From positions 1-38,065 of the IMG/VR virus record IMGVR_UViG_3300015261_000010: a stretch of 38,065 nt of DNA; one strand, given 5' to 3'. Both the position numbers and the translations under genes were made by a program. Positions 22,861 through 26,152 of the stretch are shown piece after piece (position 1 is the first letter of the stretch; the number at the start of each line of letters is the position of its first letter). The DNA comes from a virus. Below the pieces are notes generated by a model, which searched no databases, had not been told where the DNA came from, and saw only the letters and a program-made list of their open reading frames with translations.

Positions 22861-23229
22861 TTAGAACCTCTCAAATGACCAGCCGCCGCCAGACTTCTTG
22901 GTTTTGGCGGTGACTGCGACGATCTGGAACGGGTACAGGCTGGCCGCGACTTTGGTTTTCACTCGGGCGTCGTCGGTCCAAAAGCCCTTGACCTCATGCA
23001 ACTCCATGGCGCCATTGGCGAGCATCACGGCGAAGTCAGGCGTGTAGAACGTGTTATCAGCGAGGCGCAGCTTGATCCCTTCGAACTTGAACCAGGCGAT
23101 GTGCCCAACGAACTGGCGGTCCTTCAGGTACTCCATGTACGCCGCTTCGGTCTTGTTCATTTCGCCGGTCTTGAGCCGGCCCAGGGCCTGGAGTGAACGG
23201 CTCATGCCGCTCCGTGGCTGGTTAGACAT
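22861..23229 (-). CDS. DUF1064-like PD-(D/E)XK nuclease
   Basis: A 122-residue protein of the group that acts as small phage endonuclease or Holliday-junction resolvase. The nuclease core shows Asp65 in FYTPDFAV, then Glu79 and Lys81 in HEVKG, the D...ExK triad of the fold. NKTEAAYMEYL near 25-35 is the usual first helix with its Glu. ATG at 23229 has AGGAG and overlaps the end of the P-like gene by 8 bp. In lambdoid replication blocks a nuclease at this place (Rap, RusA) resolves recombination branches. Confidence 0.8.
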   Translation of the reverse strand: MSNQPRSGMSRSLQALGRLKTGEMNKTEAAYMEYLKDRQFVGHIAWFKFEGIKLRLADNTFYTPDFAVMLANGAMELHEVKGFWTDDARVKTKVAASLYPFQIVAVTAKTKKSGGGWSFERF

Positions 23230-23941
23230 GGTCGTTTCTCCTGATGCCCATCTTCGCCAGCAGCATGGCGCGGCAGGCTTTCGGGTCTTTTGGGATTTCG
23301 AGGACGTCGACGATGCGGTCGGCTTCCTGGCGGCTGTGCTCGAGCTGGACCTGCTCACGTGGGCGCATGCTGTCGTTGCCAATGCCCTTGGCAATTCGCC
23401 CTTCCAGCGGCTGGCCGGTCTGTGCGCGGCGCATGACGATGGCGTAGTTACGCTCGAAGCGCTGGCGCAGTGGCTTGTCATCGGCCCTGGCGGTGCGCAG
23501 GTCGAATGTGCTGGTGGCTTCTGCAGCGATGCGCACAGCGTCATGGGAGTACTTGCCCTCAAGGGCTTGAATCCAGGCGTCTGCCTCATGCGGCAAGCCC
23601 ATCTGTTCGGCTGTTGGCTTGCACCAGGCAACGAACTGGCCGACGTTGGGCAAGAACGGGCTTGAGGACTTACGGGCCTGCTGAAAACCGAAGGCGAGCT
23701 GTTCATCGCTGTTGATGCCGCCCTGCACAAAACCTGCGATCCATTCGCGCTTGGCGTTGAACAGCGCCTTGTCGTCTGCCCAGGCCTGGCGCCAAGCCGG
23801 AAAGATGCCTTGGAGCTTTTCGAAAACGGTGTTCACGATCTCGGCGGTGCGCTGATCGACCTTGATGGGCTGAGCAACTGGAACGCCCGCCATGGCCCTA
23901 GGCGGGTTTAGATCTTTGGTGATGTCGGTGATGTGCTTCAC
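23222..23941 (-). CDS. Replication protein P-like helicase loader
   Basis: A 239-residue protein like lambda P, which brings host DnaB helicase to the O-bound origin. The middle part fits the family: IVNTVFEKLQGIFPAWRQAWAD near 35-56, NAKREWIAGFVQGGI near 62-76, and LAFGFQQARKSSSPFLPNVGQFVAWC near 82-107. The start is GTG at 23941 with AAGGAG 9 bp before, better than any ATG nearby. It overlaps the O-like gene by 4 bp, so initiator and loader are made together. Confidence 0.88.
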   Translation of the reverse strand: MKHITDITKDLNPPRAMAGVPVAQPIKVDQRTAEIVNTVFEKLQGIFPAWRQAWADDKALFNAKREWIAGFVQGGINSDEQLAFGFQQARKSSSPFLPNVGQFVAWCKPTAEQMGLPHEADAWIQALEGKYSHDAVRIAAEATSTFDLRTARADDKPLRQRFERNYAIVMRRAQTGQPLEGRIAKGIGNDSMRPREQVQLEHSRQEADRIVDVLEIPKDPKACRAMLLAKMGIRRNDHV

Positions 23942-24717
23942 AGGATCGGCTCCTTGGCCCAGTCAGTGCTGGTCATGTCGAGCGGCAGGTTGCTGGTACG
24001 CATTGGTCCGCTCATGCGGCGGTTGGCGTCTTCCTGGGCTTTGAGCAGCCAGTTACGCCATGTGGCGATCCAGTCGGCTTTGGTCTGTCCGTTGCCGCGC
24101 CAGTAGTTCACGAACTTCTCTGTTTCGTTGACCAGGATCACGCCCGGGGTGCGTTCGGCCGCCCACTTGCGCATGTCACCGGTGACGTTGAATGGTTCGG
24201 GCAAACGGCATTTGCGCTTGGCTTTCGGCTCGGGTGCTGGAGCCGGATTTTCAGCAAGGGGGGATAAAGGGGGTTTTAGATCTTCTTCTGTATCTGTATC
24301 TGTATCTCTTATCGTTGAGTTTTCGTTCAACGGGATTTCAACGGGCGTTGAACGAGCGTTCACAGCCTTTGTTTTCCTGGCCTTGGCGCGTGCTGCCCTT
24401 GCCTCGGCAGAGGCTTTTCCCGCTGCACTTCGCTGACTTTGGGTTGCGTGAACGGCCTCCAAATCCCGCTCAATTCGGTCGTGAACCCACTCACCGGAAC
24501 GCTCGTTGAAAAACTCGTTCAACGACCGTTCAACGTCCGTCCAACGCTCGTTCGAAAGCCTTGCAATACGGGCCAGTCGGGACACTGGGATTGGCTTCCC
24601 TGTCTGCCAGTAGTTGAAGATCAGCAGCAGATAGGCGCCGTGCTCTTCTGTGGTCAGGTGCATGGTGTCGGCCAGGTAGTCGGCGACGTACAACTGCATG
24701 TATGGGAGGGCGGCCAC
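23938..24717 (-). CDS. O-like replication initiator (DUF1376)
   Basis: A 259-residue protein with an N-terminal DUF1376 domain (MQLYVADYLADTMHLTTEEHGAYLLLIFNYWQTGKPIP near 7-44), a Lys/Arg/Ala-rich linker, a DTDTDT stretch, and a C-terminal segment (NYWRGNGQTKADWIATWRNWLLKA) typical of phage initiators. The start is GTG at 24717 with GGAGGAGG before it; the upstream frame to 24813 lies in the CII-like gene. Its own coding DNA holds two sets of 11-bp-spaced repeats, as lambda O holds the lambda origin. Confidence 0.87.
   Translation of the reverse strand: MAALPYMQLYVADYLADTMHLTTEEHGAYLLLIFNYWQTGKPIPVSRLARIARLSNERWTDVERSLNEFFNERSGEWVHDRIERDLEAVHATQSQRSAAGKASAEARAARAKARKTKAVNARSTPVEIPLNENSTIRDTDTDTEEDLKPPLSPLAENPAPAPEPKAKRKCRLPEPFNVTGDMRKWAAERTPGVILVNETEKFVNYWRGNGQTKADWIATWRNWLLKAQEDANRRMSGPMRTSNLPLDMTSTDWAKEPIL
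24270..24559. other. Candidate replication origin inside the O-like gene
   Basis: Two iteron clusters based on CGTTCAACG occur at exact 11-bp steps. Cluster 1 begins at 24313, 24324, 24335, 24346 and 24357; cluster 2 at 24516, 24527, 24538 and 24549, with a related CGTTGAAAA at 24504. The motif is nearly its own complement, so copies appear in both orientations. Next to cluster 1 lies an AT-rich stretch with TCTGTA three times (24287-24304), a possible unwinding element. Iterons plus AT-rich DNA within the initiator gene copies the plan of lambda ori. The 11-bp step is not a multiple of three, so it is not a by-product of protein repeats. Confidence 0.68.
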
Positions 24718-24719
24718 GG

Positions 24720-25025
24720 CTATTCCTCCTCCAGCTGATCGACGTTCTGCACGTGCTCCATCCAGCGCTTGGCCTGGTGGAAGATCGCTTCGATGTCGCG
24801 CTGATTGAAGCACCGCATTTCATTGGGCACGACCTTGAGCCCCAGCACGGCCAGGATCTGGCAGAACTGCTCAAACTTCTCCGGCTTCATGCGGCTGATC
24901 GTCGCCTCGTCGCAACCGACTGCAAGCGCCACGGGCGCATTGCCGACAGACGCAAGGTGCTGCATGAGAACGCAATAGTTCTTGCGGGCCCTTACGGTCT
25001 GCTCTTGGTTCAATGGGCTCGACAT
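24720..25025 (-). CDS. cII: CII-like transcription activator
   Basis: A 101-residue protein like lambda CII. It has the helix-turn-helix NAPVALAVGCDEATISRMKPEKFEQF near 29-54, then LGLKVVP, the order seen in CII proteins, and an acidic C-terminal helix. CII acts as a tetramer that activates promoters for repressor and integrase and so chooses lysogeny. It lies second in the leftward operon, after cro, as in lambda. ATG at 25025 has AGAGG. No CIII was recognised, and its target promoters cannot be seen. Confidence 0.84.
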   Translation of the reverse strand: MSSPLNQEQTVRARKNYCVLMQHLASVGNAPVALAVGCDEATISRMKPEKFEQFCQILAVLGLKVVPNEMRCFNQRDIEAIFHQAKRWMEHVQNVDQLEEE

Positions 25026-25027
25026 GA

Positions 25028-25267
25028 TCAGGCCGCCTCTTCTCCGGAGTCGGGAAAGCGCTCCGGGTAAAGGATGTGAATCTCGGTGATTTCGCCGCCG
25101 AAAACCTTGCTCAGGTTTTCCGCAAGGGTTGCGGATGCACGCTGAACGCCGCGCTCGATGCGCGAGAGGTTTCCGGAATCAATGGCGTCACCGATCTGAA
25201 CCAGACGTGCCGAGACATCGGCGAGCGTCCATTTCTTTTCGAGACGAGCACGTTTTAAAGGAGTCAT
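25028..25267 (-). CDS. cro: Cro-like repressor
   Basis: A 79-residue HTH protein: LKRARLEKKWTLADVSARL is helices 1-2 and SGNLSRIERGVQ the recognition part. The repressor CI has TGNLSRLERGLQ at the same place, so both should read the same TCTGCG-N5-CGCAGA operators. The C-terminal half is a short helix and acidic tail. ATG at 25267; a 6-bp hairpin precedes it in the leader. It is the first gene of the leftward operon, and its product should shut off cI and start the lytic programme. Confidence 0.86.
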   Translation of the reverse strand: MTPLKRARLEKKWTLADVSARLVQIGDAIDSGNLSRIERGVQRASATLAENLSKVFGGEITEIHILYPERFPDSGEEAA

Positions 25268-25297: not shown

Positions 25298-25361
25298 TCT
25301 GCGATTAGCGCAGATTTAATGCAATCAAATTCTGCGCCTATCGCTTTGCGCAATACGCAGA
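25298..25361. promoter_or_regulatory. Left operator cluster, three sites
   Basis: Sites of the form TCTGCG-N5-CGCAGA. O1 25298-25314 is a perfect dyad with spacer ATTAG. O2 25331-25347 has a good left half only. O3 25345-25361 is one base off (TTTGCG) in its left half and overlaps O2 by 3 bp. They lie between divergent cro and cI, and so should hold the leftward promoter and the cI promoter. I could not fix -35 and -10 boxes here with confidence; TTGATT on the minus strand (25323-25328) is a possible -35 for cro. Confidence 0.85.
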
Positions 25362-25380: not shown

Positions 25381-26013
25381 ATGGATATTGGACAAATCAT
25401 CAGAAGCGCCCGCAAAGCCAGGAAACTTTCGCTGGAAGACCTGGCGCACCAGGTCGGCTCAGACACTGGCAACCTTTCCCGCCTGGAGCGTGGCTTGCAA
25501 AGCACCACCCCGGAAAGGCTCAAGCAGATAATGAGCATCCTGGATATCAAACTCACCCCGCAGATGGATGCGGGCATGTCGAACGTGCAGATGGCCCTGC
25601 AACCGCGCCGGGAGCCTAAGGAATATCCGTTGATCAGCTGGGTGATTGCTGGGGAATGGGCAGAATCGTGCGATACCTTCCACCCTGGTGACGCTGATAC
25701 CTGGATCACCTCCACAGAGAACGCCGGCGATAATGGCTTCTGGCTGGACGTGCGCGGCGACTCAATGACCTGCAACGGCAACCCCAGCTTCCCCGAGGGC
25801 TCACGTATCCTGGTGCGGCCTGAGGCCGACTTGATCAGTGGCAAGTATTACGTGGTCAAGCTGGGCACCGGCGAAAGCACTTTCAAGCAGTACGTTGAAG
25901 ACGCCGGGGCCAGGTATCTACGCCCACTGAATAACGCCTACCGCGTTATCCCAATCGAGGGCGAATTCAAGGTTATTGGCCGTGTGATCGACGCCAAAAT
26001 GACCGGCCTGTAG
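25381..26013 (+). CDS. cI: CI-like prophage repressor (LexA/S24 type)
   Basis: A 210-residue repressor. Residues 1-60 are an HTH domain with recognition part TGNLSRLERG. Residues 85-210 are a S24 self-cleavage domain: the cleavage site is Ala90-Gly91 (in VIAGEW), the nucleophile Ser128 in GDSM, and the general base Lys169 in TFKQY. It should be cut upon RecA activation in the SOS response, releasing the prophage. Operators lie on both sides of its gene. A perfect terminator follows at 26040. The Shine-Dalgarno is poor, as is common for repressor genes made from a maintenance promoter. Confidence 0.95.
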   Translation: MDIGQIIRSARKARKLSLEDLAHQVGSDTGNLSRLERGLQSTTPERLKQIMSILDIKLTPQMDAGMSNVQMALQPRREPKEYPLISWVIAGEWAESCDTFHPGDADTWITSTENAGDNGFWLDVRGDSMTCNGNPSFPEGSRILVRPEADLISGKYYVVKLGTGESTFKQYVEDAGARYLRPLNNAYRVIPIEGEFKVIGRVIDAKMTGL

Positions 26014-26064: not shown

Positions 26065-26081
26065 CGTCCTGAATTTATAAA

Positions 26082-26144
26082 TCTGCGCTTGACGCAGAAT
26101 ATTATCTGCGCATAATGCAACCCATGTTCTGCGATTGGCGCAGA
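26082..26144 (+). promoter_or_regulatory. Rightward early promoter with three operators
   Basis: -35 TTGACG (26089-26094), 16-bp spacer, -10 CATAAT (26111-26116). Operators: O4 26082-26098 (perfect TCTGCG-CTTGA-CGCAGA) covers the -35; O5 26105-26121 (left half only) covers the -10; O6 26128-26144 (perfect, spacer ATTGG) is over the start region. CI or Cro on these sites would block entry to the rightward operon. The set mirrors the one at 25298-25361. Confidence 0.88.
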
Positions 26145-26152
26145 TTTGTAAC

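Follow-up and report, generated by a model that had tools for sequence, protein, structure and literature searches.

The window, as we call the full length of a 38,065-base IMG/VR virus record, very probably carries a lambda-ori-like origin of phage replication that is embedded in the gene of its own initiator and is probably bound by that initiator, a protein of the DUF1376 (YdaU) family. This reading comes from sequence comparison. It draws on two clusters of palindromic repeats beside an AT-rich stretch, their conservation at the nucleotide level, the recurrence of such arrays in DUF1376 genes, and the replication genes that neighbour them. The fold of the initiator is predicted, and from these observations we infer that DUF1376 reads the repeats and that opening of the DNA, helicase loading and origin activity follow. 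Annotation libraries are already known to label DUF1376/YdaU proteins as 'primosomal protein', and in the papers available to us we found none that describes these proteins as initiators or assigns an origin to their genes.

Gene neighbourhood and features of the window

The early and immunity region of the window is lambda-like. Its genes, together with the parts of the candidate origin and of the initiator, are as follows.

23222 to 23941, minus strand: lambda P-like helicase loader gene, overlapping the stop of the initiator gene (PF06992, 3e-32; phrog_109, 8.9e-46)
23938 to 24717, minus strand: predicted initiator gene of the DUF1376 (YdaU) family, containing the candidate origin; GTG start, 259 aa (PF07120, 1.2e-25; PHROG 'primosomal protein', 6.6e-57)
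24043 to 24216, minus strand: DnaT-like C-terminal domain, residues 168-225 (profile match; DnaT structures 9zbu, 9zbt, 4ou6 and 4ou7)
24274 to 24312, unstranded: AT-rich stretch with three tandem TCTGTA repeats (GATACA-type on the coding strand), the presumed unwinding element; synonymous sites strongly conserved
24313 to 24367, unstranded: iteron cluster B, in which five units follow one another every 11 bp, with AACGNNCGTT exact at 24340 and 24351; encodes a low-confidence, poorly conserved linker
24460 to 24705, minus strand: DUF1376 domain, residues 5-86, predicted winged helix and proposed iteron reader (Pfam profile, AlphaFold2 model, structure matches)
24498 to 24557, unstranded: iteron cluster A, with AACGNNCGTT exact at 24498, 24521 and 24543 and with 1 mismatch at 24532; in the protein, it corresponds to the recognition helix and wing predicted for the DUF1376 domain
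24720 to 25025, minus strand: CII
25028 to 25267, minus strand: Cro-like gene
25381 to 26013, plus strand: CI

Repeats of another kind, TCTGCGN(5)CGCAGA with partial copies, occupy the gap between the Cro-like and CI genes (25298-25361) and occur again beyond CI (about 26080-26150). They resemble the two operators, right and left, of an immunity region of lambda type, and their sequence is unlike that of the iterons.

Iterons and the AT-rich stretch

The first-pass annotation of this DNA had described nine CGTTNAACG-like units in two clusters with exact 11-bp steps, and all nine were found where it placed them. Compared with CGTTNAACG, the units of cluster B (24313, 24324, 24335, 24346 and 24357) have 3, 0, 2, 0 and 2 mismatches, and those of cluster A (24516, 24527, 24538 and 24549) have 0, 0, 1 and 3. 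Positions and steps thus stood, with the steps exact within both clusters, but the units are uneven: four are exact, and of the five degraded ones one has a single mismatch and the rest, which are weak, have 2 (two units) or 3 (two units). A weaker tenth unit lies at 24504, 12 bp ahead of 24516. The tightest motif is the re-phased AACGNNCGTT, of which the whole 38-kb window holds five exact copies, every one within the element. The units are dyad-symmetric and are therefore inverted as well as direct repeats.

Clusters A and B are the top two spots of lag-11 self-similarity in the entire window. When synonymous codons were permuted and the protein was kept, four exact units arose in 1 of 5000 shuffles and the observed best 11-step chain in 0 of 5000, which rejects chance as their source. 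The units fall in differing reading frames and encode differing peptides, in agreement with the earlier remark that the 11-bp step is independent of codon phase. The AT-rich stretch that had been noted beside the cluster at 24313-24367 is also present, with its three TCTGTA repeats at 24287-24304 in surroundings of 60-65% AT.

Two conventional indicators of origins were also considered. DnaA boxes gave 14 near-matches across the window, below chance expectation, with none inside the element. Cumulative GC skew runs high between about 20 and 28 kb but is unusable as origin evidence because AT skew flips with gene orientation.

Nucleotide-level constraint

In a codon alignment of 38 non-redundant relatives, synonymous codon identity was compared with expectation at each position. 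It reaches about 0.8-1.0 at many positions of codons 56-73 (24499-24552), which cover cluster A, and of codons ~116-148 (24274-24372), which take in both cluster B and the AT-rich repeats of GATACA type, and is near background for most of codons 1-55 and 74-115. The freezing of synonymous sites is limited to these two stretches, with background values between and outside them, and in cluster B the bases are constant while the amino acids vary. Since the constraint falls only on two codon stretches, the cis element is bipartite (24274-24372 plus 24498-24552), with a free spacer and with the AT-rich repeats included. It is slightly larger than first described: both clusters lie inside the extent then given, and the conserved element reaches 24498 and 24274, past the cluster coordinates noted at the time.

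The predicted initiator

The initiator matches PF07120 (DUF1376/YdaU) at 90.1 bits, against a curated cut-off of 30.1, and its only other Pfam matches are weak ones to DnaT and DUF6291. The likeness of its C-terminus to DnaT is suggested by a profile match to DnaT structures (E 7.8e-5), with the Pfam DnaT score, 15.2 bits, under the cut-off of 25. A PDB sequence search with the DUF1376 profile gave no credible match. In the AlphaFold2 model the N-terminal domain is confident (pLDDT >90 from about residue 11) and has winged-helix topology, with helices at 11-18, 23-39, 45-51 and 56-66 and strands at 71-73 and 76-78. It is followed by a long helix, then by a low-confidence linker (127-158), for which the AT-rich DNA and some of cluster B provide the codons, and lastly by a helical C-terminal domain. 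The structures matched are winged helices, including ORC2 and the N-terminal domains of RepA_N initiators, at Z <=7.4, which may reflect just a common arrangement. By the usual order of elements in winged helices, the recognition helix would be the one at 56-66, and most of cluster A lies in the codons for it (24520-24552).

Across relatives, the downstream partner is a P, a DnaC/IstB-like or a DnaB gene. Iterons of the window's type, together with the N-terminal domain, pair with several C-terminal types, and several iteron types are in turn represented in the main C-terminal cluster. That the iterons keep the N-terminal domain while C-terminal types vary favours the DUF1376 domain as their reader, although co-inheritance is weak proof of recognition because iterons and N-terminal domain are physically linked.

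Recurrence in DUF1376 genes

A survey of 146 non-redundant DUF1376 genes found significant lag-11 self-similarity in 88, where about 0.7 would be expected, and a lag-22 signal in 44 of the 146; 58 of the 146 lack a significant lag-11 array. Flanking DNA holds such arrays in 1 of 143 upstream and 1 of 143 downstream regions. Within the genes, array positions peak at nt 150-180 and 300-360, which correspond to clusters A and B of the window, and many relatives, such as the Rhizobium group, show cluster B alone. Dyad symmetry is commoner in the arrays than in column-permuted controls (39 of 93 at p<0.05). As the genes surveyed are not phylogenetically independent, recurrence is more safely gauged by how many distinct iteron types there are, namely at least four. 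The window shares AACGNNCGTT with Pseudomonas, Serratia and Pantoea elements; the unit is AACANNTGTT in E. coli Rac and some others and TGCANNTGCA in Rhizobium phages, and it is TGCGNNCGCA-like in another IMG/VR group that has both clusters. Unit sequence shifts coordinately by lineage, with the architecture retained.

The AT-rich component recurs in distant relatives as well. Signals at lag 7 and lag 12 come from AT-rich 6-7-bp tandem repeats (GATACA; AACCAWW) immediately past the linker array, and in the mean of 89 arrays both AT content and A excess are highest 0-60 nt past the array. The 7-bp AACCAWW form, on a coding strand that is nearly free of G, stands just past the linker array in many IMG/VR DUF1376 genes (L246-L308, about nt 350-420).

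Some further observations were made in the course of the survey. The arrays of L040, L098, L138 and L342 have 23-bp or 12-bp steps and variable unit numbers, which suggests that units have been gained and re-phased between relatives. A gene of the Mom family (DNA modification) lies directly downstream of the DUF1376 gene on one IMG/VR contig (L249:3570-4385). In the plasmid collection, matches to DUF1376 were few (15 records) and most of them lay on large replicons, from which no sign of plasmid-replicon use was drawn.

A blind scan and a second protein family

IMG/VR was also searched for AACGNNCGTTNAACGNNCGTT, that is, two adjacent units, with no protein used, which returned at least 91 loci. 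Among the matches listed, 71 of 91 loci lie within a DUF1376 ORF, usually 312-411 nt past the start of the domain, and DUF1376 ORFs make up just 7.4% of the DNA of the loci listed. Most of the other loci among these matches are in Lin1244_N ORFs (PF14297 in five of those scanned). These phage proteins likewise have, in the linker that follows the domain, pairs of AACGNNCGTT stepped by 11 bp together with AT-rich repeats of the AAAGTAAAG type (L321, L341, L350, L380, L396, L399 and L400), but they belong to a Pfam family other than DUF1376, and homology between the two was not supported by profile comparison (hhalign probability 7.5). The shared layout suggests that Lin1244_N may be a second initiator family with an equivalent self-embedded origin. 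In L326, L346 and L387, two-unit AACGNNCGTT arrays lie at gene boundaries near RecF/SMC-like ATPase, capsid and terminase genes; these are either chance matches or another origin type.

Comparison with known systems

In lambda, protein O binds iterons in the middle of gene O beside an AT-rich tract, and the loader P is encoded by the partner gene (PMC7466680). Like lambda ori and that of Stx phages, the window has iterons and an AT-rich tract in the middle of an initiator gene, with lambda P, CII, Cro-like and CI neighbours. Unlike in lambda, the initiator is a DUF1376 protein with a DnaT-like C-terminus and is no lambda O homologue by Pfam (no match to Phage_rep_O, the lambda O family); the unit is a 10-bp palindrome at 11-bp steps, and a second cluster lies within the coding sequence of the predicted DNA-binding domain. 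The earlier suggestion that the logic of lambda ori is repeated here with a DUF1376 initiator gains strong comparative support from the nucleotide constraint on the repeats and the AT-rich stretch. Further support comes from the occurrence of arrays in DUF1376 genes and not in their neighbours, the winged-helix model, the adjacent P, DnaC-like or DnaB genes and the layout of ydaU in Rac.

The Rac prophage of E. coli has an active origin, oriJ (PMC3945230), and oriJ plasmids are cited in PMC11014345. Its ydaU is a DUF1376 homologue with an equivalent layout of the linker array and with GATACA-type repeats, whereas its units are AACANNTGTT, its cluster A is weak or degenerate and its loader is the DnaC/IstB-like YdaV and not P. 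We infer that oriJ is the ydaU element, the position of oriJ being known here only to the level of the prophage.

RepA_N plasmids of the pSK41 type have an initiator with a winged-helix N-terminal domain, an origin central in rep and a C-terminus that varies by host genus (PMC5703833). The DUF1376 system resembles them in its central in-gene element, its predicted winged-helix N-terminal domain and its variable C-terminal domain, but its partner is P, DnaC or DnaB. The fold match is too weak for a claim of kinship: the RepA_N structures 4pql, 4pt7 and 5kbj give Z 6.1-6.4, too low to rule out a common arrangement, and none of 38 DUF1376 domains matches RepA_N (PF06970) up to E 1.

Alternative explanations

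One alternative is that the repeats are an operator or roadblock, through which the initiator binds its own gene solely to repress its own transcription, the true origin being elsewhere. The sites are downstream of the gene start in an early operon, where binding could block RNA polymerase, and such a role could coexist with origin function. However, an operator needs no conserved AT-rich tandem-repeat stretch beside cluster B, a form that recurs with other sequences; similarly placed sites of lambda O and RepA_N are origins (PMC7466680, PMC5703833); and no other lag-11 array in the window matches these two clusters. We regard a purely regulatory role as improbable.

We consider it decidedly improbable that the element, as an origin or another cis site, is read by a protein other than the DUF1376 domain, such as another part of the initiator, host DnaA, a phage regulator, or a packaging or partition factor. 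The C-terminal domain of the initiator is DnaT-like, and binding by DUF1376 is itself deduced from sequence. But C-terminal domains and loaders swap with the iterons unchanged, there are no DnaA box candidates near the element, and the repeats of the CI/Cro region differ (TCTGCG...CGCAGA).

Conservation imposed by mRNA structure, with cluster A RNA pairing with cluster B RNA, is very unlikely and was rejected as the cause. The strand does fold better than its shuffles (z -2.56) with A-B pairing, but palindromic sites in two places pair automatically, Rfam gave no match, many relatives show cluster B only, and the conserved 11-bp phase and AT-rich repeats are left unexplained. Ordinary coding constraint or amino-acid repeats are scarcely credible and were rejected at the sequence level: cluster A does encode a conserved helix, NERWTDVERSLNEFF, but the units are encoded in different frames as different peptides, in cluster B synonymous sites stay conserved although the residues vary, and the codon-shuffle null fails.

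Proposed mechanism and significance

If the element is the origin, its use could be envisaged in three steps. Firstly, the winged-helix DUF1376 domain would bind the palindromic 10-mers AACGNNCGTT, one per 11 bp and on a single face of the helix, in clusters A and B. Then the complex, possibly bridging both clusters, would strain the DNA so that the AT-rich GATACA-type repeats (24274-24312) beside cluster B open. Finally, the DnaT-like C-terminal domain would hold the exposed single strand and/or recruit the lambda P-like loader, the product of the next gene, which would deliver the host DnaB helicase.

More broadly, we think it likely that DUF1376 is a widespread family of winged-helix initiators with the origin inside their own gene, consisting of 4-NN-4 palindromes per 11 bp, after which come AT-rich tandem repeats of 6-7 bp. 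Its sites would have changed sequence several times (AACG/CGTT, AACA/TGTT, TGCA/TGCA, TGCG/CGCA), and the codons of the predicted recognition helix would, in some lineages, hold a portion of the array, so that site and reader are encoded by identical bases. Such a family would place oriJ of Rac inside ydaU and predict many phage origins from sequence.

On this account, DUF1376, a domain of unknown function, gets a specific and testable job as an origin-binding initiator, and there would be a rule for locating the replication origins of many prophages and temperate phages, E. coli Rac among them. Divergent pairs of initiator and iteron would provide material on how a winged helix reads 10-bp palindromes packed at each helical turn, and binding sites that overlap the predicted recognition-helix codons would represent an unusual constraint on the evolution of specificity.
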